NCBI GenBank assembly: GCA_008501765.1
Contig: QQUE01000002.1
Span: 742,336 to 806,335 of the forward strand
DNA length: 64,000 bases
Direction: 5' to 3'
Source: Calditrichota bacterium
GTDB taxonomy: Bacteria; Zhuqueibacterota; Zhuqueibacteria; Zhuqueibacterales; Geothermadaptataceae
Shown here: piece after piece, positions 1 through 15,143 of the stretch
How positions within the stretch are numbered: position 1 is the first letter of the stretch
How the letters are laid out: every line of letters begins with the position of its first letter
Notes under the pieces: generated by a model
Told to the model about the DNA's origin: nothing
Database searches by the model: none
What the model saw: only the letters and a program-made list of their open reading frames with translations
Program-made: the position numbers and the translations under genes

Positions 1-1
1 C

Positions 2-1738
2 CAAATGGACATTGAATTGTATTTTTACGCGCCGCATTTACCGGACATAAAAGAATTCGAAGAAATTGCTGACACCTGTTTTGAGGCAATCGAAACCATG
101 TTCGATGAAATTGAAACCATTACCGGCCTGCCTTATCCCTATCCACGACTTGCATTCGTCGAGAGTCCAACTCAAATGCAAATTTATCTCACAGAGTCGG
201 GGGTGCAGAATACCCTGCTGCAGCCTGGAATTATTATGATTGATGAGACAGAAATTACCGGGCGAAATATTAAAAAAGAAATAGAGAATCGAACAAAACG
301 TGCCAAAAGGCGCGGGCAGGATGATAGCCCTCAAAAAATAAAACGTGATGTTTTTATCGATTTTATGCTCGATTATCTTATTCCCTCCAATTTCTGGCGC
401 GGGGATGGAACGCTGAATTCACCATTGAAAAATCACCTGCATTTTCAAATGGATATTCGCAATCCGGTGCTGGCTCGAGCGCTGGAAGTCCAGTACTTCG
501 AGTTGTGTGAGAAGCGGATATATGATACTTTCTTCCCTAAAAGCAGTAAGCGGCGCTTCAGTAGTTTCGATGAATTGCGCAATTTCAATTCTGGTTGGGC
601 CATTCGTCGACGCTACGATGTCAACCTCGATTCACTCATCCAAATACTGGAACAAGTGCCGTTGTCGCAATTAAAACCGCAGGGAAAGGGTGGGTTGTAT
701 CGCGCTGCTGTCGATTTTAAATCACCGCAAATTTTGGAAATGCTGCGCAATCTTGTCGGCGAGGAGCAGTGGCAAAAAGGAATTCAGGAATTGGTCAAAC
801 AATATCGTTACAAACCGGTCACCCGTGAAAATTTGCTCGAAATGGTGCAGAATGGCCCCGCTTCAGTCGAGTCAGATTTCTTCGAAACATGGTTTGATAA
901 GAAAACATATCCGGGGTATAAAATTATCTCAGCAGAGGCACAAAAGCTCAAACCGCGAGGATCGAAAAATATAAAAATGGGCTATCAGATCAAAGTGAAA
1001 GTGCGCAATGGGGAAGAGGGCGCAGGGTTCGTGCGCTTGTTGTGCAGGTTAAAAGGGGATGATACCTGGAAAAAAGTATATCTGAACAGTTTTGAGGAAA
1101 AAGAAATCTTGTTCCCGGTTTATGCGCAGCCAAAAGAAATTGAGCTGTATCCATATTATGCGCGCAATCGCGGAAAAATAAAAAAAGCAATTCGAATTAA
1201 AGAAGGGCTTTTGCGCAAGCAGCCGGTGGACACCTCTTTTGTAATCAAGCACTCTTTGAGCGATTCGTTAAATTTTGTGCTCGACGATCAAAGTGAAAAG
1301 TTTTCTGCTCCGGTTCAAAATGAATCCAAATATTTTCGTCCTGCTCTCAAAGGCAAATCGTGGCAAGCACGAATAGATGATGTTGCTTTTGGTGATTATT
1401 ACCTGAGTTGGCATTTTAAACGTGGCGGATCCGGCGAATACCCGGCACGCTGGGAAGCAGAAATCCCGAAAACGGGCTCCTATTCCTTGAGTTACAGGCT
1501 GCCTTATGGCAAAACGTGGTTTTTGCATCCCCGCCATTTTGTGGATGAATTGATCTTGAAAATTTACGCGGCGGATGGTGAACAGAAGATAAAATTGCGA
1601 CCGGCTCAAACCAGTGATGACTGGCTGCCGATGGGACAGTTTTACTTTGAGAAAGGCAAACCGGCCATTGTGGAGATTATCGATGAGGGAAACGGCCGGT
1701 TGATCGCTGACGCAATTCGCTGGGAATTTGTAAACTAA
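2..1738 (+). CDS. Degenerate M1-aminopeptidase-like protein with golvesin-like C-terminal domain (5' partial)
   Basis: The reading frame is open to the first base of the window, so the gene is cut at its 5' end; residues below count from the first ATG at 5. Residues about 1-310 resemble the later half of M1 metallopeptidases: a 'tGLPYPYPRLAFVESP'-like segment, then a helical part ending in 'FFETWFDKKTYPGY', typical of the M1 C-terminal region. No HExxH zinc motif is visible; the place where it would be expected reads around RDVFIDFMLDYL (114-125), so the domain looks inactive, or the motif lies upstream. Residues about 425-577 resemble the golvesin C-terminal domain (GEYPARWEAEIPKTGSYSLSYRLP and a closing LIADAIRWEF), often found on secreted enzymes and probably involved in binding. 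The role is unknown; it may be an envelope protein. It stands apart from the following operon. Confidence 0.55.
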   Translation, partial: QMDIELYFYAPHLPDIKEFEEIADTCFEAIETMFDEIETITGLPYPYPRLAFVESPTQMQIYLTESGVQNTLLQPGIIMIDETEITGRNIKKEIENRTKRAKRRGQDDSPQKIKRDVFIDFMLDYLIPSNFWRGDGTLNSPLKNHLHFQMDIRNPVLARALEVQYFELCEKRIYDTFFPKSSKRRFSSFDELRNFNSGWAIRRRYDVNLDSLIQILEQVPLSQLKPQGKGGLYRAAVDFKSPQILEMLRNLVGEEQWQKGIQELVKQYRYKPVTRENLLEMVQNGPASVESDFFETWFDKKTYPGYKIISAEAQKLKPRGSKNIKMGYQIKVKVRNGEEGAGFVRLLCRLKGDDTWKKVYLNSFEEKEILFPVYAQPKEIELYPYYARNRGKIKKAIRIKEGLLRKQPVDTSFVIKHSLSDSLNFVLDDQSEKFSAPVQNESKYFRPALKGKSWQARIDDVAFGDYYLSWHFKRGGSGEYPARWEAEIPKTGSYSLSYRLPYGKTWFLHPRHFVDELILKIYAADGEQKIKLRPAQTSDDWLPMGQFYFEKGKPAIVEIIDEGNGRLIADAIRWEFVN

Positions 1739-2524: not shown

Positions 2525-4051
2525 ATGGAAAAGATGAATTTTAGTTCGACTCAATTTATGAAATTAATACTATTGATTGTAGGGTGCATTTTATATTTTG
2601 TCCCGGTAATTACGGCCCAGACCCCGCGGCAATTAACACTGGATCAAAGTATTTCTATCGCTTTGAGTAAAAGCACGCAGGTCAAGCAACTCAAACAATC
2701 GCTTATTCAATCGCAAATGAGTTTAAAATCGGCGCGGGCGAGTTATAAAAGCAATAGCGAAATTGTATTTTCCAGCTTGCCAAACTACCAGCGAACCGAA
2801 CAGAAAATTCCAAATATTACCGGTGGATTTACATTTTCACAGCAGGATAATATTACTTTTCAGGGTGATTTGTATGTCAACCAACCAATTCCGTTGCTGG
2901 ACGGGACATTTTCGCTGGTCGGCAGCATGGAGCGGTTTAATCAAAATTTATCCAATTCATTGTTGGGATCAGATGAAGGCACAAGTTATAGTCCCAATTT
3001 GACTCTGCAATACCGGCAACCGCTTTTTACCTACAACCGGTTGAAAACCGGGGTGCTGCAGGCGGAACTTAATTTGGAAGAATCCACCGCAAGTTATAGC
3101 CGCAATCAGCTCGATTTAATTTACAACATCACAACCGGATTTTTTAATCTTTTCAAAGCGCAACGGCAAGTTGGAATTGACAACTCACAGGTGGAACAAT
3201 CGGAGAATGCCTACAATATCGGCCGCATGAAACAGCAGGCAGGTTTACTGGCAGAAGTTGATGTTTTACGCCTGGAAATCGATTTGGCCAATGCGCAAAA
3301 TACGCTCTCAACAAGCGAGGCGCTGCTCGAACAAAATCAGGACAATTTTAAAAATCTGATTGGACTCGACATCATGGAGGAAGTGCGTGTTGTCGCAAGT
3401 TTGGAATATGAATCTGCAGATATCAATTTGGACGAAGCTATAAAAAAAGCGCTCGATTATCGAACAGAACTGCGTTCCGATGAAATTTCGGTTCAATTGG
3501 GCCAAATGAGCGTGCTTGAAACAGATGCACAACGTGAAATTAAAGGACAGCTTTTCGCACGCTATGGTTTGCGCAATCGGGCAGATGAACTCAATATGGC
3601 CTTTCAAGATTTTAATGATGACCGGTCTGTAGTCGTCTCGCTGACAGTGCCACTTTGGGACTGGAGTCGAAACGCGTTTTCAGTACAAGCGCAACGCGCT
3701 TCCCTGCAAAGCAGGAGATTGGCTCAGGCCGATCGTATTAAAACCATCAAAATAGAAATTCGTACTGCAGTGCGCAATTTAAAATCGGCGGATAAAAGGG
3801 TACAAATTACCAAACGGAGTGAGGAATTAGCACAAAAAAATTATCGCATTTCACTGTTAAAATTCGAAAATGGCGACCTTTCAAGCCAGGGATTGGCACT
3901 CGAGCAAACCCGGCTCACCACGGCGCGAAGCAACTATTTGAATGCCATTATCGATTACAAACAAACGCTGGCGGATTTGCGCCGTAAAACTTTGTGGGAC
4001 TTCGAAAAAAATGAGCGCGTGTTTGTTGATGTCCCGGTTGAAGATGATTAA
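2525..4051 (+). CDS. TolC-like outer-membrane efflux channel
   Basis: This 508-residue protein has a hydrophobic signal peptide (about residues 12-31, ending near VITAQ) and then the two-fold OEP (outer membrane efflux protein) pattern. The first repeat opens with LTLDQSISIALSKSTQVKQLKQ and the second with NLDEAIKKALDYRTELRSDEI, each followed by long coiled-coil helices and a short barrel strand region. It would form the trimeric exit duct of a tripartite pump. The ATG at 2525 is used; the ATG at 2534 is an equally plausible start. It is followed 62 bp later by the adaptor and then the RND pump, so the three form one export operon. The substrate cannot be told from sequence. Confidence 0.92.
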   Translation: MEKMNFSSTQFMKLILLIVGCILYFVPVITAQTPRQLTLDQSISIALSKSTQVKQLKQSLIQSQMSLKSARASYKSNSEIVFSSLPNYQRTEQKIPNITGGFTFSQQDNITFQGDLYVNQPIPLLDGTFSLVGSMERFNQNLSNSLLGSDEGTSYSPNLTLQYRQPLFTYNRLKTGVLQAELNLEESTASYSRNQLDLIYNITTGFFNLFKAQRQVGIDNSQVEQSENAYNIGRMKQQAGLLAEVDVLRLEIDLANAQNTLSTSEALLEQNQDNFKNLIGLDIMEEVRVVASLEYESADINLDEAIKKALDYRTELRSDEISVQLGQMSVLETDAQREIKGQLFARYGLRNRADELNMAFQDFNDDRSVVVSLTVPLWDWSRNAFSVQAQRASLQSRRLAQADRIKTIKIEIRTAVRNLKSADKRVQITKRSEELAQKNYRISLLKFENGDLSSQGLALEQTRLTTARSNYLNAIIDYKQTLADLRRKTLWDFEKNERVFVDVPVEDD

Positions 4052-4113: not shown

Positions 4114-5172
4114 ATGAGAAAGCCCGCTAGTATAAATTTATGGATCGTTGCATCGTTGTTCATTTTTATCGTGGGTTGTGATGAAAGTGATGATCGATCG
4201 GCTGCGGATTTAACGATTCCAGTGAGCGCGATGAAAGTGACAAAGCAACAAATTGCCAGCAGCATTTCCGCCACTGGGACGTTAAAGGCAAAATTCGAAC
4301 AGAATTTGTTGGCAGAAGTCGATGGCATTTTACACTTTTCTCCGGCCATCCTGCAAAAATATAAAAATGGCGTGCGCGTAAATGAAGGCGAAATCATTGC
4401 CACGCTCGAAAACCCGGAACACCTGCTGACGACGCGCGTCGAATCAAAAAAAATGGCGATGGAAGATGCGGAGGGTGAATTAGCCAAGCAGAAAGCGTTG
4501 TTCAATGAAGGGGGGGTGACGGAAAAAGAGCTTAATTTGGCAAAACGCGCGGCCCTCGATGCCCGTTTAAATTATGATTCAGCTTTGCTCAGCCAGAACA
4601 AGTTGCAATTGCGTGCACCAAAAACCGGATTTATTGCCAACTTGCAATCGATTTATATCAACACCCGCATCAAGCCGGGATTTAAAGTGTGCACAATTAC
4701 GGATTACGCGGAGTGCATCGTTGAGGTCAATTTACCAAATTCGGACTTGGGGCGCATTGCCGGCGGTGCACGTGTGGAGATTTCAAATTATTCGATGGAA
4801 GATGAAATTTTTAGTGGTCGAATCGTTTCAATCGATCCGACAATCAGCCCGCAGACGCGTACTTTCACCGTGCTCATCGAAGTTGATAATCCCGATCGTT
4901 TGTTGCGCCCGGGCATGTTCGTCAAGGCGGACCTGATTGTGGAAGAAAAACAGGACGCCCTTGTCGTGCCCAAATATGCGGTTTTGACGCGGAATAACCA
5001 GCAGCGCGTTTTCATCGTCAATGGTATTGTCGCCAGCCGGCTTGAGGTGACGACAGGAATTGAAACACGTGATTTAATAGAGATAACAGAGGGCTTGAGT
5101 GAGGGGGATCGCCTCATCGTTAAAGGCCACGAGACGTTGCGGGATAAATCGAAAGTGCGGGTAATCGAGTAA
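4114..5172 (+). CDS. RND efflux periplasmic adaptor lipoprotein (HlyD/MFP family)
   Basis: At 352 residues this is a standard-length membrane-fusion protein. The N-terminus is a lipoprotein signal with the lipobox IVGC at residues 19-22, so it should be anchored in a membrane through Cys22. The order is barrel/lipoyl half-motif, alpha-hairpin (about 105-165, VESKKMAMEDAEGELAKQKA onward), second lipoyl half (LRAPKTGFIANL), beta-barrel (VEVNLPNSDLG), and membrane-proximal domain (ALVVPKYAVLTRNNQQRVFIV...VTTGIETRDLIEITEGLSEGD split across its strands). It links the upstream TolC-like channel to the RND pump that begins 83 bp downstream. All three proteins needed for a tripartite pump are therefore encoded together. 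Confidence 0.93.
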   Translation: MRKPASINLWIVASLFIFIVGCDESDDRSAADLTIPVSAMKVTKQQIASSISATGTLKAKFEQNLLAEVDGILHFSPAILQKYKNGVRVNEGEIIATLENPEHLLTTRVESKKMAMEDAEGELAKQKALFNEGGVTEKELNLAKRAALDARLNYDSALLSQNKLQLRAPKTGFIANLQSIYINTRIKPGFKVCTITDYAECIVEVNLPNSDLGRIAGGARVEISNYSMEDEIFSGRIVSIDPTISPQTRTFTVLIEVDNPDRLLRPGMFVKADLIVEEKQDALVVPKYAVLTRNNQQRVFIVNGIVASRLEVTTGIETRDLIEITEGLSEGDRLIVKGHETLRDKSKVRVIE

Positions 5173-5255: not shown

Positions 5256-8200
5256 ATGTTTAATTTATCTAAATTCTCTGTAAAATATCCTGTCACCGTA
5301 GCGATGATTATGCTCGGAATCTGTCTCCTTGGCTTGATTTCATTAGATCGACTGGGCACCGATCTCCTGCCCGCAATTTATAATCCACGGATTGTTATCG
5401 AGCTGCGATCTGGAGAAAAATCGCCATTGGAAATGGAGCACAAGTTTGGCCGCCAGATTGAGGGAGAGCTTGGTACCATCAGCCGCGTCGTCGATGTGCA
5501 AACGACCTGCAGTCTCGGCCGATTGATTGCCACGGTAACTTTCAGTTGGGGCACGGATATGGATTTTGCCCTGCTGGATGTGCAAAAGAAGGTGACCCGC
5601 TTCGAATCTGAGCCGGATGTCGATGATATCACCATCGCGCGCTACGATCCGCAACAGGAGCCGATTGCAATTTATGCTGTCCAGTCGCACGGCGAGCACG
5701 ATCTTGATGAGTTGCGCCGAATCGCCGAGAATGTGATAAAACGCAATCTCGAGCGTTTGGATGGGGTTGCCCGTGTGCAAACATTTGGCGGAATCAAACG
5801 CGAAATTCAGATTAAACTCGATGATTATCTGCTGCAAGCCTATGGATTGACGGCTGGCACGATTATCAACAAATTAAAAGAAGCCAACGCCAATGCCTCC
5901 GGCGGAAAACTCGAACAGGAGGGAACTTCATATCTCATAAAAGGCATCGGAGAATTTGCCTCGATCGAGGATGTAGGCGCCACAGTTGTAGGCTATAAAT
6001 CCGCTAATCAGGATTCAGCTGGCAGTCTGCAAACGAGCCGCCAGTTTTCAAATGATAAAACGCCTGTTTTTCTCTCCTATGTTGCCGAAATCAATTACAT
6101 TCCGCAAGAGCGTAGCGACATTGTTCGCCTGAATGGCCGCGAGGCTGTCGGGCTTTATTTATACAAAGAAGCGCAAGATAACACGGTGCTTGTCTCGCAG
6201 GCGATCGATGAAACAATCGCTCAAATGCAATCGGAAATGGCCGGTTTGCAATTTACCCGCATCAATAGTCAGGCTCGATTTATAAACAGCGCAATCGGCG
6301 AAGTTAAAACCACGGCGATTCTGGGGATTGTTCTCGCAGTATTGGTGCTGTTTGGATTTTTGCGGCAGTTCGGTGTTACGGTTATCGTGAGCCTGGCGAT
6401 TCCGTTGTCAATTCTCGCCACCTTCACGCTGATGTACTTTCAAAATCTTACTTTAAATGTAATGACCCTCGGCGGTCTGGCTCTGGGCGCCGGGATGCTG
6501 GTAGATAATGCTATTGTGGTTATCGAAAATATATTTCGCCATAAAGCAAAGGGTGAATCCGCTGACGAGGCCGCAATCAATGGAACGAATGAGGTTGGTG
6601 TCGCGATTGTAGCCAGCACTTTAACGACAATTATCGTATTTTTGCCAATTGTTTTTGTGCGCGGCGTGGCGGCGGAACTTTTTCGTGAACAAGCCTGGGT
6701 TGTCGCGTTTTCACTGCTTTCTTCGCTGCTCATCGCCTTTTTGCTCATTCCGGTTCTCGCTTCGCGATTGTTCAAAAAACAGGAGTCGGTGGTATTTGCA
6801 GCGCGGGAGCTGCGATTTCCATTTTACGAAAGATTGCTGCAGCGTGCGCTGAATAATCGCGGAATGGTTGTTGTCATTGCGATGATTTTGTTGGGCTCGG
6901 CAATTTTATTGCTGCCGACAATCGGCTCCGAATTTGTACCGCGCAGTCAGGAAAATCAAGTTCAAATCGATCTCGATTTAAATCCGGGAACACCGCTCGA
7001 ACACACGTCGGTTGTGCTCGCTTCTGCGGAGTCGCGCGTGCGGCAAACATTGGGTTCAAATTTTGAAAATATTTATTCAACAGTCAATGTTCGAACAGTG
7101 CAAAGTCTTATAACAGATGCAGCAGAATCAGGCGAACACCGAGCTTCGATTATCATAAACCTGGCTAAAGAAGCAGAAAAAATAACACCGGTTGAGGCGA
7201 TTCGATTGCTGCGTCCTGTTTTGTCTCTCCCGGATGTTGCGACAAATTTCAAGATTCGCGAAACCGGATTTCAGCAAATTCTCGGTGCTGGCAGCGCACC
7301 GATTGTGGTGCAAGTTCGGGGACAGGAACTCGATGGACTGCGCGAAACAAGCGAGCAACTTGAAAAAGCGTTAAAAGACCTCAATATGCTGCAATCCATC
7401 GAAACCAGTTTTCAGGTTGGGCGTCCGGAAATCAAGCTAAAAATCGACCGTTTACTGGCAGCCAGTTTTAATCTCGATGTGGCACAAGTGACTTCGGTAG
7501 TCCGAAACAGGTTGGCCGGAGAGGTGGCAACGACATTTTATAATCAGGGCGTGCAACGGGATATTCGTGTTTTGTACGATAAATCAACCTTGCATGAATT
7601 GCAAAACTTAACCATCAAATCGCCTGATGGGACAGAGCTGCGCCTGAAAGATATCACACATTTTGAAATGGGCGAAGGGCCGAAAGAAATCAAACGCAAT
7701 AATCAGTCACGGGTTGCCTATGTCACCGCCCAGTTAAAAAAAGGCGTACATTTAAGCGATGCCGTTTCTCGCGTGAACAATATTTTACAAAATATTGGGC
7801 TAAAGCCAGGCTATGAGCTGCGATTTGGAGGCGAAGAAGCCGCGCGCCAGGAATCTTTCAATCAGTTGCAATTTGCCCTTTTACTGTCGATCATCCTCGT
7901 TTACATGACACTGGCCTCATTATTCGAAAGTTTTTTGCATCCATTTACAATTTTATTGACGCTGCCACTGGCCGGAGTTGGCGTTGTCTATGCCTTTTTT
8001 CTCGTTGGTGAACCATTCAGCGTGATGGCTTATATCGGAATAATAATGCTGGCAGGAATCGCGGCCAATGATTCGATCGTGCTGGTTGATTATGTCAACC
8101 GGTTGCGAATTGATGGTATGAAAAGAAAAGAAGCCCTCCTGCTTGCTGGTCGGAACCGGTTGCGGCCAATTGTGATGACGAGCGCAACGACAATTCTTGC

Positions 8201-8351
8201 TTTGTTACCGCTAACGATCGGGCTTGGTGAGGGCGCTCGATTGCGTGCACCAATGGCCATCGCTGTGATTGGCGGATTGGTGACTTCAACCATTTTGACG
8301 TTATTAATTATTCCGGTTGTCTACGATTTAATCGATAGAAAAAAAGAATGA
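5256..8351 (+). CDS. RND efflux pump, HAE1/AcrB-type inner-membrane subunit
   Basis: The 1031 residues match the usual length of AcrB-family proton-driven pumps. TM1 lies at about 12-30, a large periplasmic loop follows, TM2-TM6 start near 353, a second large loop starts near 560, and TM8-TM12 fill the C-terminus. The TM4 proton-relay segment reads GMLVDNAIVVIEN (413-425): Asp417 is kept while the second Asp of AcrB is Asn. TM10 has GIAANDSIVLVDYVNRL in place of the AcrB lysine segment, as in many environmental RND pumps. With the TolC-like channel and adaptor upstream it completes an export operon. Substrate unknown; drugs, lipids or detergents are all possible. Confidence 0.94.
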   Translation: MFNLSKFSVKYPVTVAMIMLGICLLGLISLDRLGTDLLPAIYNPRIVIELRSGEKSPLEMEHKFGRQIEGELGTISRVVDVQTTCSLGRLIATVTFSWGTDMDFALLDVQKKVTRFESEPDVDDITIARYDPQQEPIAIYAVQSHGEHDLDELRRIAENVIKRNLERLDGVARVQTFGGIKREIQIKLDDYLLQAYGLTAGTIINKLKEANANASGGKLEQEGTSYLIKGIGEFASIEDVGATVVGYKSANQDSAGSLQTSRQFSNDKTPVFLSYVAEINYIPQERSDIVRLNGREAVGLYLYKEAQDNTVLVSQAIDETIAQMQSEMAGLQFTRINSQARFINSAIGEVKTTAILGIVLAVLVLFGFLRQFGVTVIVSLAIPLSILATFTLMYFQNLTLNVMTLGGLALGAGMLVDNAIVVIENIFRHKAKGESADEAAINGTNEVGVAIVASTLTTIIVFLPIVFVRGVAAELFREQAWVVAFSLLSSLLIAFLLIPVLASRLFKKQESVVFAARELRFPFYERLLQRALNNRGMVVVIAMILLGSAILLLPTIGSEFVPRSQENQVQIDLDLNPGTPLEHTSVVLASAESRVRQTLGSNFENIYSTVNVRTVQSLITDAAESGEHRASIIINLAKEAEKITPVEAIRLLRPVLSLPDVATNFKIRETGFQQILGAGSAPIVVQVRGQELDGLRETSEQLEKALKDLNMLQSIETSFQVGRPEIKLKIDRLLAASFNLDVAQVTSVVRNRLAGEVATTFYNQGVQRDIRVLYDKSTLHELQNLTIKSPDGTELRLKDITHFEMGEGPKEIKRNNQSRVAYVTAQLKKGVHLSDAVSRVNNILQNIGLKPGYELRFGGEEAARQESFNQLQFALLLSIILVYMTLASLFESFLHPFTILLTLPLAGVGVVYAFFLVGEPFSVMAYIGIIMLAGIAANDSIVLVDYVNRLRIDGMKRKEALLLAGRNRLRPIVMTSATTILALLPLTIGLGEGARLRAPMAIAVIGGLVTSTILTLLIIPVVYDLIDRKKE

Positions 8352-8423: not shown

Positions 8424-8750
8424 ATGGAAAATTCATCAGAAATTGCTGGAATAGTTGGATCGTTGTTGACTCTTTTAATTGCTCTTTCAGATAAAGTTGT
8501 GCTAAAAAAGTTAAAAAAAGCACAAGCTATTTCATCGGAAACAGCGATTGAATTTCCCAAATTAAATCCAATATTCCGGCAGCGGTTAAAACGATTGGTG
8601 CGTCAGGGGGATATAGAAAGAGATTCATCTGAGAGATATTGGATAAACGAAGAACAAAGAAAAGCGAACAGGAGAAAACGATTGCGCAGGCTTGCGATAA
8701 TTCTGCCCTTAATTCTCGTGTTTCTTTTGAGCATCTTTTTAATTTTTTGA
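8424..8750 (+). CDS. Small protein with two membrane segments around a winged-helix-like core
   Basis: The 108 residues start with a hydrophobic stretch (about 7-22, IAGIVGSLLTLLIALS) and end with another (about 89-107, AIILPLILVFLLSIFLIF). Between them, SSETAIEFPKLNPIFRQRL followed by KRLVRQGDIERDSSERYWINEE looks like a small winged helix-turn-helix: helix, turn, a recognition-like helix with RLKRLV, then a wing ending in RYWI. A highly basic patch (RKANRRKRLRRL) precedes the last helix. This could be a membrane-tethered DNA-binding or regulatory protein; I recognise no family. It lies 72 bp after the RND gene, perhaps in the same transcript. Confidence 0.55.
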   Translation: MENSSEIAGIVGSLLTLLIALSDKVVLKKLKKAQAISSETAIEFPKLNPIFRQRLKRLVRQGDIERDSSERYWINEEQRKANRRKRLRRLAIILPLILVFLLSIFLIF

Positions 8751-8766: not shown

Positions 8767-9252
8767 ATGCCAGAGAAAAAAACGCCTTTTCGCCCGGTTC
8801 GAAGATCGGATAGAGCCATCGATGAAAAAGCAGCCATGCAGATTTTGCAGGATGGAAAATATGGTGTTTTATCCACCGCGGATGAATCTGGACAACCTTA
8901 CGGAATTCCAGTAAATCATATCGTAATTGGAAATTCCATATATTTTCATTCCGCAATGCACGGCCACAAAATTGATAATATCAGAATGAACAGCAGGGTG
9001 TCGTTTTGTGTCGTCGGGGCGAACAAAATTATACCCGAGCAACTGGCGACAAACTATGAAAGTGTTGTTGTTTTTGGTGTGGCAACCAGAGTCTCAAACA
9101 ACGAAAAACGCAAGCCACTGGAAGCATTAATTAAAAGGTTTGCGCCAGATCAGGTCAATACATCCGCAGAATATTTTGAAAAACATCTGAAACGAACGGC
9201 TGTGATAAAAATTGACATCGAACACGTGAGCGGAAAAGCGCGCAATGAGTAG
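8767..9252 (+). CDS. Pyridoxamine 5'-phosphate oxidase-like flavin-binding protein (NimA/COG3467 type)
   Basis: This 161-residue protein has the split-barrel FMN-binding fold of the PNPOx-like superfamily. Visible features are the N-terminal RPVRRSDRAIDE, the helix and strand ILQDGKYGVLSTADESGQPYG, the IPVNHIVIGNSIYFHSAMHGHKIDNI block, and the NSRVSFCVVG strand. That order is typical of the 5-nitroimidazole-resistance-like (NimA) and 'pyridoxamine 5'-phosphate oxidase family' proteins, which bind FMN or heme and reduce small substrates. The true substrate is unknown. It begins 14 bp after the small membrane protein. Its stop overlaps the start of a short broken lipoprotein frame. Confidence 0.85.
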   Translation: MPEKKTPFRPVRRSDRAIDEKAAMQILQDGKYGVLSTADESGQPYGIPVNHIVIGNSIYFHSAMHGHKIDNIRMNSRVSFCVVGANKIIPEQLATNYESVVVFGVATRVSNNEKRKPLEALIKRFAPDQVNTSAEYFEKHLKRTAVIKIDIEHVSGKARNE

Positions 9253-9610: not shown

Positions 9611-12600
9611 ATGATTTCTTTTTCATCAAAAAGACCGGTAACTGTTGCGATGCTTGCCCTTGGATTATGCCTACTGGGTGTCATTTCGTGGAATAAACTG
9701 GCCGTGCAACTCTTGCCTGAATTTATAATGCCAGAGGTGTTTATCGGAGCCGGTTTGCAGGGCGCCTCGCCGCTGCAAATTGAACGCGATCTAGTGATCC
9801 CGATCGAGGGCGAAATCAGCCAGCTCGAAAATGTCCACGATATAAACAGTTCCGCCGGGGCAGGATTTGCCTCAATTCAAATAAGCTTTAATCACGGCAC
9901 TGATATGAAATTTACGCTGCTCAAATTACAGCAGCGAATAAATGCCGTGCAAAAGCTACTGCCCGCAGGATCCACTGTCCGCATAAACCATTTCGACTCA
10001 GCCGATTTATCATCCTATTTAATGCAGCTCAATATTCGCGGTGAGAGCACATTGGAAGCCTTGCGTGAAACAGCGGAGCGTCGTGTGCGACCTCGTTTGG
10101 AACAAGTCGACGGCATTGTAAATGTGCGCGTTGGCGGCGGGCAACGAAAAAATGTCGGAATCGAAGTTGACAAAGATAAATGTGAAGCGCGAAATATTTC
10201 GATTTTACAGGTTCAGCAGAAAATAAATGCGTTCCACAGGCAACCACAACAGGCCGGGCGAATTGTAGAAATGGGGAAAATGTGGGATATTATCGTGGAT
10301 GGCCGGGTTGATGATTTACGTGAGTTGCAAAATCTCATCGTCCGGTCGGATGGGCCGGTTTATTTGCGCGATGTTGCAACTATCGGTTACAGCCAGGAAG
10401 AACAGACCAGCATTTACAGGGTGAATGGCAAGTCCAGCGTTGGAATAATGGTGCAGAAAGATAACACCAGCAACATGTTATCCGTCGCGAGCGCTGTGTT
10501 GGAACAAATAGAAACTCTCAATCTTGAGCTGGAATCGCTTGGCTATGAACTCGTCGTCGGATTTAACCAGGCACAAGTTATTCAAGAGGCGATCGACCGG
10601 GTGAAAAGCCTGGCTCTAACCGGTGCATTTCTCGCACTCCTCGTATTATTCCTTTTTCTCCGCAACGTGCGCTTTGTTTTGATTCTCATGGCAGCAATTC
10701 CTATATCGTTGCTGGTTACTTTCAATCTGATGTTCGGCTATAACCTCTCAATAAACATTCTTTCTTTGTGCGGGCTGGCGCTGGCAATCGGCATGCTGGT
10801 GGATAATGGCATTGTGGTGATGGAAAATATATTTTCCCATTTTCAAAAAGGAAAGAATGCAAAACAGGCGGCTTTTGACGGCACCAAGGAAATGGCGCGG
10901 TCGATTTTTGCAGCCACAGGAACCACGATTCTCGTTTTTCTCCCGGTGCTTTTCATTGAAAGCGATGCACAGCTTTTTATTCGTGAGTTAGCGCTTTCGA
11001 TAATTTTCCCGCTGGCTGTTTCACTGGTTGTTGCCTTGTCAATAATACCGCTGTTAGCCGGGTTTTCTCTGAAAATTGCCCCGGATTATCGTGCGAAACA
11101 CAGCCGTGCCGCTGAAATATATCGGATTTTCTTAAAGTCTGTTTTACGTCACAGGATACGCACGGTGAGTGGGGTCATTTTGCTGCTTCTCATAAGCTTG
11201 TTCATCGGGGTGATATTCATAATGGACAAAGGTGAGGCGCCGCCACCAGAACGTATTGAAGCGTTTATAACAATGCCACGGGGATCGACGTTGGCACGTA
11301 CAGACGAGGTTGTTGAAAATCTGGAAAAAAATATTGCCGAGCTCAAGGATGTTGATGAATTCCGCTCAAATATTCAGGAAGAGGAAGCGTCAATTACTTT
11401 GGACTTTAAGCCACCGAATGAACGCGAAGAAGAGTTAAATCTCTCCAAAATTAAACAAAAAATAAAGCGATGGAACAGGCGTTTTCGTGATACACAGCTA
11501 ACATTCGACCAAAAAGAAAACAGTTTTGGTGGCCGTACCGGTCGAGGCATGGCGGGTGGATTCCTGGGTGGGGAGTCAAAAGCATTGGTGTTACGCGGCC
11601 ATGATTTACAAAAATTGCAAATGTTGAATCGGCAAATCATAGAAACACTGAAAGATCAGCAAGATATCGAAGATGAATCCGTTCGATCAGCCTGGCGCGG
11701 CGGCATGCCGGAATTGCAAATTCGCGGTGACAGAATCCGCCTGGCGATGTGGGGATTGAGCATGCGCGAAATCATGCAAACAATTTGGACGACGCGTAAA
11801 AATGGCGCCAATTCACAAACTCCATTTAATGGTGAACAGGGTGAAGTTAACATCAACTTGCGCTATAAAAACATTGAGGAAGCCCGGATCGAAGATGTCA
11901 GCGAGTTAAAGGTTATGAATTCAACGGGGGCACTGGTGCCGTTACGCGAGGTGGCGACAATCCGCACAGATGAGGGGGAAGGCAGCATTTCGCGCCACAA
12001 TCAGGAGCGGGAGATTCGCATATCCTACGCTTTTCGCACGGTTGCCGAGCAGGCGAAGACGCGGCTTGAACAAGCCGAAAGCCAGGTCGACCGCCTGGTG
12101 CGTGACATGCGCCTGCCAAAGGGTTTTACACTTGAAAAGGAAAAAGAAGACGAATCTCGACAACCGTATTACTGGATGCTTGGAATCGGAACACTGCTTA
12201 TTTTTATGTTTCTTGCGGCGCAGTTCGAGTCCTTTTTCGGACCATTTGTGATTTTGGGAACAATCCCGACAGCGATTATCGGAGCACTTTTTACTCTTGC
12301 GATTACAGGCACACCATTAACTTTGGGAAGTGGTGCGCCAATGGCATTGCTCGGATTAATTGTGTTGCTCGGAATCGTCGTAAATAACGGTATTATATTA
12401 CTTGACCGCATCGCTGTTTTGCGGACGCACGATAATTATTCCTGGCAGCGAGCGATAATTATAGCCGGGCAGAGCAGGGTGCGTCCGATAATTATGACTT
12501 CGGTGACAACGGTTCTTGGCGTTTTTCCATTGGCACTGAAACAGGGAATGGAGTTGGAAATTTGGCCTCCATTTGCTTTAACGGTCATCGGTGGTTTGAC

Positions 12601-14350
12601 GGTTTCGGCCCTCTCGACATTGCTGTTTATTCCTGTACTTTACGTGGGATTTGAACAAATTCGTGTATGGCTGAAAAATATTGGCTGGCCGTTTGTTGCT
12701 GTCGCCAGTGTGATAACCTACGGAATAATGCTGTGGTATTTCCAGCATTATAACAGCATACTTTATACTTCACTTCTGGTTTTACCGGTTTGGTTTTCAA
12801 TCCTGGGCTTAATTTATGCCGGGCAATCGATGCTGCGAATTAAGCAGGAAAAAGCCCGATTGGCAGCATCCAATCTGACTATTGAAATATCCAATTTAAC
12901 AAAAATATATGGCACCCCGGGACGGCTTGTTCGTGAGTGGCAGAAAAACAGACGACGTGAGACATCCGAAGAACACGTACGGTTTGAAACGAAACCTTCA
13001 GGAAGCCGGGATGCGCTTAAAAACAGCACGATTTGGGTCGTGGCTGTCGGTATACTTTTAATTTACCTTCATTTCTTTTTCACCTCCGGACTTTGGATTG
13101 CCATTCTGAGCATACTCTCTCTGCTTTATTTGTTTAGTGTCCGGCCCTATTGGTATCGCTGGCGTTTTCATTTAAATCGTCCATCTTTTCCGTCACGTTT
13201 TAAATTTATTTCCGGTGCGGCATATCAGGATAAAGAAAAGAGAACACCTTTCACTTATCAAAACTACCAATCGCGTGGCGGGACGCTCTTCGTCTTGTCT
13301 TTTTTAATCTACTTTTTCCTGCGAACCGAGCATATACCGGTGACCGTGGTTTTTTTAGTTTTCACACTTTTACTGTGGCGGCTGAATAAAATATCGATGA
13401 AAATACAAGTCGGCGAGATTAATCCTGAATTACCCAGCGGCAGGTTTCGTCGGATTAAACGCGTGATTTATGTCATCGTTCAGAACTTTCCTTTTATCAA
13501 ACCGCCGAAGCCGCAAGTCCATGCGCTGCGCAGTGTAAACCTGAAAATTCAAAAAGGGATGTTTGGATTGCTTGGGCCGAATGGCGCTGGAAAAACGACC
13601 TTAATGCGTATTCTCGTCGGCGTACTGCAACAGAACCGTGGCAGCATAAAAATCAACGGACTTGACCTCGACAAACACCGCGAGATATTTCACGGTTCAA
13701 TCGGGTACCTTCCACAGGATTTTGGTCTTTATGAAAACATGACACCAGAGGAATATCTTAATTATTATGCATTGACGAACGGTATTTACGAAAAACAGGA
13801 TCGCGAACAGCGGATCGAGAATATTTTGCAAAGTGTGGGATTGTGGGATCGGCGCAACGACAAAGTCAAAACATTTTCCGGCGGCATGAAACAGCGTGTC
13901 GGCATTGCGCAGACTTTGTTGCATCTACCCTCCATTATAGTCGTCGATGAACCCACGGCCGGACTGGATCCTCGCGAAAGAATTCGTTTTCGCAACCTGC
14001 TTTCGGAACTGGCAAAAGAACGAATCGTCGTTTTTAGCACGCATATTATCGAAGATATTTCCAGCACCTGCAAGGACCTTGCTGTGTTGAATGGCGGTCG
14101 TGTTATTTTTCGTGGATCACCGGAACAGCTGCAAAATCGTGCCCGGGGCCTCGTTTATGAGGCGATGATTTCTGAAGATCGGTTTGCAGAGGTGCAGCAA
14201 TCTTTAAATCTGATCCAGCATAATAAAACAAACGATGGCATTTATGTTCGTTTCATCTCAATTTCTGAGCCCGCCGCAGAAATACAGACCCGGTCGGTGG
14301 AACCCAATTTGGAAGATGCCTACCTGTATCTTCTGCAAAAAGAAAAATAA
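9611..14350 (+). CDS. RND efflux pump fused to an ABC transporter ATPase domain
   Basis: One uninterrupted 1579-codon frame. Residues 1-1015 form a complete HAE1-type RND pump: TM1 at 9-27, TM2-TM6 from 331, TM7 near 518, TM8-TM12 from 853, with the TM4 segment GMLVDNGIVVMENIF (394-408, Asp398 kept). Two more membrane spans follow (about 1024-1044 and 1051-1070). Then comes IEISNLTKIYG (1091-1101), like the first strand and A-loop tyrosine of an ABC ATPase. About 200 residues with four further hydrophobic spans (near 1140, 1160, 1224, 1242) follow. Then the rest of the ATPase: Walker A GPNGAGKT (1322-1329), signature FSGGMKQ (1422-1428), Walker B IIVVDEP (1442-1448), D-loop AGLD, H-loop His1478. 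All key ATPase residues are intact. No clear Shine-Dalgarno site. An ABC permease gene follows 7 bp downstream, which suggests one hybrid exporter. Confidence 0.9.
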   Translation: MISFSSKRPVTVAMLALGLCLLGVISWNKLAVQLLPEFIMPEVFIGAGLQGASPLQIERDLVIPIEGEISQLENVHDINSSAGAGFASIQISFNHGTDMKFTLLKLQQRINAVQKLLPAGSTVRINHFDSADLSSYLMQLNIRGESTLEALRETAERRVRPRLEQVDGIVNVRVGGGQRKNVGIEVDKDKCEARNISILQVQQKINAFHRQPQQAGRIVEMGKMWDIIVDGRVDDLRELQNLIVRSDGPVYLRDVATIGYSQEEQTSIYRVNGKSSVGIMVQKDNTSNMLSVASAVLEQIETLNLELESLGYELVVGFNQAQVIQEAIDRVKSLALTGAFLALLVLFLFLRNVRFVLILMAAIPISLLVTFNLMFGYNLSINILSLCGLALAIGMLVDNGIVVMENIFSHFQKGKNAKQAAFDGTKEMARSIFAATGTTILVFLPVLFIESDAQLFIRELALSIIFPLAVSLVVALSIIPLLAGFSLKIAPDYRAKHSRAAEIYRIFLKSVLRHRIRTVSGVILLLLISLFIGVIFIMDKGEAPPPERIEAFITMPRGSTLARTDEVVENLEKNIAELKDVDEFRSNIQEEEASITLDFKPPNEREEELNLSKIKQKIKRWNRRFRDTQLTFDQKENSFGGRTGRGMAGGFLGGESKALVLRGHDLQKLQMLNRQIIETLKDQQDIEDESVRSAWRGGMPELQIRGDRIRLAMWGLSMREIMQTIWTTRKNGANSQTPFNGEQGEVNINLRYKNIEEARIEDVSELKVMNSTGALVPLREVATIRTDEGEGSISRHNQEREIRISYAFRTVAEQAKTRLEQAESQVDRLVRDMRLPKGFTLEKEKEDESRQPYYWMLGIGTLLIFMFLAAQFESFFGPFVILGTIPTAIIGALFTLAITGTPLTLGSGAPMALLGLIVLLGIVVNNGIILLDRIAVLRTHDNYSWQRAIIIAGQSRVRPIIMTSVTTVLGVFPLALKQGMELEIWPPFALTVIGGLTVSALSTLLFIPVLYVGFEQIRVWLKNIGWPFVAVASVITYGIMLWYFQHYNSILYTSLLVLPVWFSILGLIYAGQSMLRIKQEKARLAASNLTIEISNLTKIYGTPGRLVREWQKNRRRETSEEHVRFETKPSGSRDALKNSTIWVVAVGILLIYLHFFFTSGLWIAILSILSLLYLFSVRPYWYRWRFHLNRPSFPSRFKFISGAAYQDKEKRTPFTYQNYQSRGGTLFVLSFLIYFFLRTEHIPVTVVFLVFTLLLWRLNKISMKIQVGEINPELPSGRFRRIKRVIYVIVQNFPFIKPPKPQVHALRSVNLKIQKGMFGLLGPNGAGKTTLMRILVGVLQQNRGSIKINGLDLDKHREIFHGSIGYLPQDFGLYENMTPEEYLNYYALTNGIYEKQDREQRIENILQSVGLWDRRNDKVKTFSGGMKQRVGIAQTLLHLPSIIVVDEPTAGLDPRERIRFRNLLSELAKERIVVFSTHIIEDISSTCKDLAVLNGGRVIFRGSPEQLQNRARGLVYEAMISEDRFAEVQQSLNLIQHNKTNDGIYVRFISISEPAAEIQTRSVEPNLEDAYLYLLQKEK

Positions 14351-14357
14351 GGCGACC

Positions 14358-15143
14358 ATGAATCAACTGGATATGCGTCAGCTTTTGGCTGAAATTAATA
14401 AAAATACACCACCATTTTTTGCGTTAAACTTCCTGCAAAGACTAAAAGTCAGTTTGGAAGTTTTTCGCCTGAATACGCGGATTGTTTTTTCAAATCGTTT
14501 TGCCTGGTTTCTTTTCGGTTTGATAGCTTATATTATTTTTCTCTATGTGGTGAATTATCAAAATGAAATTTATGACCGCATGCGTCCGGACTTTATATTT
14601 TACATGTTGGTGCAGCTCCCGCTATCGGCGATTGCAGTGTTTTTATGTATGAATTTGATATCATCGGAAAAAGACAACCGGACGTTGGAAATTACATTTA
14701 CCACGGCAGGATCGCGCTATAAAATCTGGCTCATTCGCTTCGGCAGTTTATGTGTTTTATTTCTTCTTCTCGCGATTGTATTAAGCTCGATCGGATTTTT
14801 CTTTTTTGTGGAGTTACCAATCTGGAGTCTGGCATTCCATGCCTACGTGCCCGTCTTTTTTATCGCCGGAATGGTGTTTTATTTTGCGGTAAAATTTCGC
14901 AGCGGCCTGGCGGCGGGCATGGTTTCCGGGATTGTTTTGTTTTTTATGTTTACGTTTCATGAACCTTTGGAAGATACCCGCTACACCTTATTTTTTAATC
15001 CTTTTGATGTACCCCACAATATCGACGCATCCGTTTGGTATGACTGGACATGGCAAAACCGAATAGGATTGCTCGTCCTCGGTGGACTGTTTATCTTCGC
15101 AGCGTTGCGTGGAATGAACAACCGGGAGCGGTTATTGCGGTAG
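14358..15143 (+). CDS. ABC transporter permease, partner of the RND-ABC fusion
   Basis: The start at ATG 14358 gives 261 residues and lies 7 bp after the fusion gene; a longer upstream frame overlaps that gene and is unlikely. The protein has a cytosolic N-terminal helix (FLQRLKVSLEVFRLNTRIVFSN) and six hydrophobic spans: near residues 52-68, 83-102, 129-151, 160-176, 183-199 and 236-253. The segment MNLISSEKDNRTLEITFTTA is typical of the first cytosolic loop region of ABC-2 type permeases, where a short helix contacts the ATPase. No periplasmic binding domain is present. It very probably pairs with the ATPase at the end of the fusion protein. Substrate unknown. Confidence 0.85.
   Translation: MNQLDMRQLLAEINKNTPPFFALNFLQRLKVSLEVFRLNTRIVFSNRFAWFLFGLIAYIIFLYVVNYQNEIYDRMRPDFIFYMLVQLPLSAIAVFLCMNLISSEKDNRTLEITFTTAGSRYKIWLIRFGSLCVLFLLLAIVLSSIGFFFFVELPIWSLAFHAYVPVFFIAGMVFYFAVKFRSGLAAGMVSGIVLFFMFTFHEPLEDTRYTLFFNPFDVPHNIDASVWYDWTWQNRIGLLVLGGLFIFAALRGMNNRERLLR

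Follow-up and report, generated by a model that had tools for sequence, protein, structure and literature searches.

One open reading frame of the window (the whole stretch of 64,000 nucleotides that was analysed) encodes an RND pump subunit and an ABC ATPase in a single polypeptide, and the ATPase is itself split by a membrane insert, which lies after the A-loop strand and before Walker A. The fusion belongs to a seven-gene module made up of an ATPase (ATPase A), an ABC-2 permease with a dead M1 domain, TolC, a membrane fusion protein (MFP), a second RND subunit (RND1), the fusion of RND and ATPase B, and a small ABC-2 permease. The sequence-only reading was correct in its observation of the fusion, which it understated: it missed the split of the ATPase, and the upstream ATPase and the M1-like permease lie mostly outside the window. 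The features of the module within the window are as follows.

1..1738 (+): 3' end of the ABC-2 permease with 7 TM and catalytically dead M1-peptidase-like and Golvesin_C periplasmic domains; the gene (~1100 aa) starts upstream of the window, at C8:740771
2525..4051 (+): TolC-like outer membrane factor (Pfam OEP, E 1.2e-35; conserved position)
4114..5172 (+): periplasmic adaptor or MFP (Pfam HlyD_D23, E 9.7e-23; conserved position)
5256..8351 (+): RND1, an ordinary 12-TM HAE-1-like RND subunit with no ATPase (Pfam ACR_tran, E 3.7e-223)
9611..12652 (+): RND part of the fusion, residues 1-1014 (Pfam ACR_tran; solved RND pumps, MdtB and AcrB among them, align with it end to end)
12653..12868 (+): linker, residues 1015-1086, predicted to hold two TM helices (hydropathy; AlphaFold helices)
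12869..12946 (+): residues 1087-1112, where the ATPase has its first beta strand and A-loop (LTIEISNLTKIYG..R..REW; alignments and AlphaFold model)
12947..13504 (+): residues 1113-1298, the membrane insert within the ATPase (four helices modelled, three evident from hydropathy)
13505..14347 (+): rest of the ABC ATPase, including every catalytic motif and the C-terminal tail, residues 1299-1579
14358..15143 (+): ABC-2 (type V) permease, 261 aa, 6 TM (weak Pfam ABC2_membrane_2 match, under the cut-off; conserved downstream)

The fused gene (9611-14350, +) is open from ATG to stop and its translation gives one unbroken chain of 1579 residues. Pfam ACR_tran covers residues 1-1014 (E 7.8e-198), over positions 1-1020 of the 1021 in the profile, and ABC_tran covers residues 1306-1450 (E 2.1e-31) with no stop on the way, which bears out the earlier description of a complete HAE1-type RND pump running unbroken into an ABC ATPase. 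The RND part has the characters of an HAE-1 permease (full-length ACR_tran, 12 TM and two periplasmic porter loops), and its closest solved relatives, with which it aligns end to end, are AdeB-like pumps, MdtB and AcrB. For the ATPase these are ABCA ATPases, TM_1403 and NosF. Among the NCBIfam profiles, RND permease subfamilies match the first part of the chain and drrA- and GldA-type ATPases the last, all under their curated cut-offs (530 bits against 1250 for RND_permease_2); drrA and GldA score far above FtsE, and the ATPase is also near the ABCA lipid exporters. Its catalytic residues are Walker A K1328, Q-loop Q1369, signature S1423, Walker B D1446/E1447, D-loop D1453 and H-loop H1478. 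The Walker A, signature, Walker B, D-loop and H-loop had been read as intact and are all present, and every motif residue is identical in 43/43 aligned copies of the fusion.

The ATPase begins with residues 1087-1112 (LTIEISNLTKIYG...RLVREW), continues into the hydrophobic insert, and resumes only at HALRSVNL...GLLGPNGAGKTT. The insert, of about 190 residues, is conserved throughout the fusions, where the A-loop strand and Walker A lie 188-249 residues apart (42 of 43 copies measured). In the stand-alone sister ATPase of the module the matching strand is only 25 residues before Walker A; this spacing of about 25 residues, which marks a contiguous ABC ATPase domain, is not found in the fusion. 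Directly after the strand, a K-x-Y...R-x-W pattern (K1098, Y1100, R1108, W1110) is essentially invariant among the 43 copies. Deletion of the insert in silico raises the score against ABCA3 from 194.7 to 205.1 bits and that against ABCA1 from 187.0 to 202.3 bits, and the shortened sequence aligns to ABCA ATPases across the join without a large gap. An AlphaFold model of residues 1000-1579, which is a monomer piece of moderate quality (pLDDT 74.5, 17 sequences), places a strand at 1091-1097, followed by helices and then by the remainder of the ATPase fold. Extra membrane spans ahead of the ATPase had been described in the earlier reading; this holds for the two helices that join the RND part to the A-loop strand, while the further spans lie inside the ATPase. 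Four helices are seen there in the model and three are clear by hydropathy; an even number would keep both parts of the ATPase in the cytoplasm. The insert was also considered as a disguised ABC-2 permease, and this was rejected, hhalign giving probabilities of 0.8% and 2.5% against the two permeases of the module. Judging from this arrangement, the fold of an ABC ATPase may accommodate a large membrane insertion directly behind the A-loop.

Could the fusion be a product of assembly or gene calling? Most of the genomes are probably MAGs, and a few fragmentary ones hold copies broken by contig edges or by single stops or frameshifts; thus G012 (L010) has one in-frame TAG in the insert and G897 (L131) one frameshift in the RND part, either of which may be a sequencing error or decay. 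An artefact is nevertheless refuted, and keeps only a vanishing probability, by 43 full-length single-chain copies that could be aligned down to 30% identity, some of them on contigs of 0.9, 1.0, 1.3 and 6.0 Mb. The same full-length homologues in other genomes uphold the frame across 12.6-13.6 kb, where a stop or frameshift had been named as what would undo the observation. About 20 of 40 related genomes have the full-length fusion with no internal stops. Identity is 76% within the genus, 57-61% within the family, the order and part of the class, and 36-38% further out, in other families of the class.

The RND-ABC fusion occurs in at least five bacterial phyla, with carriers in the host's own phylum, in Bacteroidota and in Gemmatimonadota-, Fibrobacterota- and Acidobacteriota-type genomes. 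Genomes were searched with a profile built from the linker and the insert only, and phyla other than the host's are named here after the record titles of the MAGs that served as search centres. The fusion was found in 41/82 genomes of the host's phylum, in 6/396 Bacteroidota genomes plus one further Bacteroidales MAG, in 1/200 genomes of the phylum of a Gemmatimonadetes MAG, in 2/151 of that of a Fibrobacteres MAG (one with a frameshift in the RND part), in six of 179 of that of an Acidobacteriota MAG, and in one N-gapped genome of the phylum of a Neomarinimicrobiota MAG. The phylum of a Desulfobacula MAG gave 0/178, a group with no positive control. Among plasmids, none of the best 5000 records covers 80% of residues 1015-1579. 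One scan of contigs used Walker motifs as its patterns and so yielded mostly generic ABC ATPases.

The sequence-only reading would have been overturned by homologues that are always two genes. No lineage has the RND part and the ATPase as separate genes, and none was found in the roughly 1,600 genomes searched with the linker and insert profile. Weak matches considered as such homologues look like chance in G763 and G1063, and the one in G1496 is an RND without an ATPase; two further weak matches of Acidobacteriota type are genuine divergent fusions. The G1496 locus (L176 7188-16773) holds an RND protein with a 386-residue N-terminal extension beside a 1749-aa, 6-TM ORF with no Pfam match. The earlier statement that no characterised transporter has this layout agrees with the open-access literature, in which we found neither a description of the fusion or its module nor a characterised counterpart; uncharacterised entries of this architecture probably exist in protein databases under RND names.

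Around the fusion, the order TolC > MFP > RND1 > RND-ABC > small ABC-2 permease is the rule in the 35 loci examined. An intact RND1 lies within 1.5 kb upstream in 29/35 and the small permease follows downstream in about 30/35, the remaining loci being mostly contig edges or rearrangements. Both operon partners of an HAE-1 pump, MFP and TolC, are therefore present. The downstream permease pointed out earlier is a conserved ABC-2-type gene. Its role as 6-TM ABC-2 partner follows from its conserved position, with a Pfam match under the cut-off and type V fold matches that are weak (ABCG2, NosY and PmtCD among the best, E 0.07-0.8, for an AlphaFold model of pLDDT 86). Between RND1 and the fusion, the window also contains a small 2-TM ORF (8424-8750) and a pyridoxamine-5'-phosphate-oxidase-like flavoprotein (8767-9252); G001 and G009 have ORFs of about these lengths directly ahead of the fusion, which most homologous operons lack.

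The other two genes, ATPase A and the M1-type permease, sit as a pair just upstream of TolC. ATPase A (C8:739822-740730, ~300 aa, contiguous fold) lies wholly upstream of the window, and locus L180 (6823-11071) spans the pair. The pair was near the operon in 10/10 loci first fetched, some of them picked because an ATPase or M1-type ORF was already visible, and in 17/18 further loci, which include Acidobacteriota-, Gemmatimonadota- and Fibrobacterota-type genomes; in all, the M1-type permease gene adjoins the operon in 27 of 28 loci. The HExxH zinc motif was found in 0/13 and 0/20 M1-type permeases (overlapping sets). In the 82 genomes of the phylum, 39 have both the fusion and the M1-type permease, 38 neither, 2 the fusion only and 3 the permease only (Fisher p 4e-17, with no correction for phylogeny). 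All five discordant genomes come from fragmented, MAG-like assemblies, with completeness below 90% in four. In some genomes (such as G023, G031 and G037) the fusion and the M1-type permease sit on different contigs and the co-occurrence holds, so that linkage alone is no proof of physical association. The two permeases show a distant relationship in their membrane parts (hhalign probability 68%, E 5e-5). In G009 (L138, L185), the opposite strand carries RND1, TolC-size ORFs and the ATPase/M1 pair, at a distance of several kb from the fusion, and in G010 (L137), of the same genus, the pair is likewise on the opposite strand.

In AcrB the proton relay involves D407, D408 and K940. The corresponding residues of the fusion are D398, N399 and N925 (43/43, 40/43 and 42/43 copies): a single, invariant TM4 aspartate is present in every copy, and D408 and K940 are both replaced by N in nearly all. 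The D407 equivalent is kept, and so are R956 and T963. This D/N/N pattern does not discriminate, since most unfused RNDs share it; among 18 unfused RNDs of the same and related genomes, N is found at the K940 position in 17/18 and at the D408 position in 12/18. The substitutions being normal in unfused RNDs, they say nothing about loss of proton coupling, and such a loss was rejected as a special trait of the fusion. With intact ATPase residues and relay residues like those of most ordinary RNDs, the sequence is consistent with the doubly powered exporter proposed earlier, and the ATP-gated exporter named beside it is just one reading among several.

RND pumps and ABC exporters, both main engines of efflux in bacteria, are taught as alternatives. 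How might they act together here? On balance we lean towards a conserved trans-envelope exporter with the fusion at its core, in which an RND tripartite pump and an ABC-2 (type V) exporter are combined and the substrate is relayed from ABC to RND. ATPase B, and probably ATPase A too, would drive the ABC-2 permease or permeases, which would take a hydrophobic or amphiphilic substrate out of the cytoplasm or the inner leaflet by flipping or extrusion. The dead-peptidase domain is possibly a receptor that helps transfer to the heterotrimer of RND1 and RND-ABC, and this would use the proton gradient to move the substrate out of the cell by way of MFP and TolC. Anchored by membrane helices on either side, the split ATPase may keep the RND trimer and the ABC transporter in constant contact. 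Since an ABC transporter requires two ATPases and RND pumps are trimers, a mixed RND trimer with one or two fused ATPases, not three, would be expected, by analogy with MdtBC. The latter, encoded by two adjacent RND genes, forms heterotrimers (PMC8277102). We infer the order (ABC first, RND second), as we do the substrate, stoichiometry and coupling of the module; the idea of a relay draws on family knowledge and on the precedent of the RND MmpL7 and the ABC-2 exporter DrrABC, each required for PDIM export (PMC11539658).

Alternatively, the fused ATPase may not move substrate itself but act through ATP binding on the proton-driven RND pump, which it would open, assemble or regulate, the ABC-2 permease being a membrane relay in the style of mechanotransmission by FtsEX or MacB. 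Covalent joining of the ATPase to the last RND helix and the clamping membrane helices on both sides would suit such gating, and an RND part with ordinary relay residues may pump alone; yet two ABC-2 permeases and a second ATPase, conserved alongside, go beyond the needs of a gate, and the ATPases resemble those of exporters rather than FtsE or MacB, which makes this reading rather unlikely. It is distinctly less probable that the RND part gave up proton coupling and serves as a periplasmic duct, all energy coming from ATP. MmpL7, which lacks the proton relay, works with DrrABC (PMC8427324, PMC11539658), and nearly all fusions have N in place of D408 and K940; however, the unfused RNDs usually carry like substitutions and the D407 equivalent, R956 and T963 are retained. 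Very unlikely, finally, are two independent pumps joined just for the sake of equal dosage and a common location, with no coupling of energy or substrate. Fusions of co-operonic genes are common in general, but RND and ATPase are never apart in any lineage found, to about 30% identity, a membrane-inserted split ATPase would be a costly tether, and the co-occurrence with the remaining ABC parts is near-strict.

There is about an even chance that the module represents a new class of transporter, a seven-gene, trans-envelope machine with two ATPases and two RNDs, in which a single substrate would be acted on in series by ATP hydrolysis and the proton gradient, within one covalent unit and with a membrane-interrupted ATPase. 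The HAE-1 tripartite pumps (AcrAB-TolC, AdeB-type, MdtABC) are alike in the complete RND subunit with both halves, the MFP and TolC, and mdtBC also has a second RND gene, whereas the NCBIfam subfamily cut-offs are not reached by the fusion; to our knowledge, no HAE-1 pump has an ABC ATPase or ABC-2 permeases. SecYEG-SecA with SecDF, and ArsA-ArsB, combine ATP use on the cytoplasmic side with a proton-driven or secondary carrier on one substrate; these differ from the fusion in that their polypeptides are separate and their ATPases belong to unrelated families. Type V ABC exporters (DrrABC, NosFY, PmtCD, ABCA, ABCG) are similar in ATPase sequence and in the fold of the small permease, and have contiguous ATPases, in contrast to the membrane insert of ~165-225 residues after the A-loop of the fusion. 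The nearest functional precedent is PDIM export in mycobacteria, where one substrate is handled by both an RND protein and an ABC-2 exporter of DrrA type (PMC11539658). MmpL7 and DrrABC are, however, products of separate genes, the RND is of the MmpL family, not HAE-1, and there is no MFP or TolC; in the fusion the ATPase is joined to an HAE-1-type RND, and split. Two normally separate energy sources thus meet in one predicted exporter, in a module that has apparently never been studied. The fusion makes the coupling of primary and secondary active transport directly testable, and its module points to a physiological export substrate in hardly studied bacteria.

As to origin, the fused RND parts form one clade apart from RND1 and from the 18 control RNDs, with weak support (0.59). 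The RND1s are monophyletic (support 1.0) and branch broadly in parallel with the fused RND parts. The simplest reading of these trees would be one ancient fusion, inherited or transferred as a unit. The fused ATPases also form one clade (support 0.93), whose neighbours are the stand-alone ATPases of the module and plain ABC ATPases of Paenibacillus and Anaerolineae; haloarchaeal ABC ATPases reach up to 46.7% identity to the fused ATPase.
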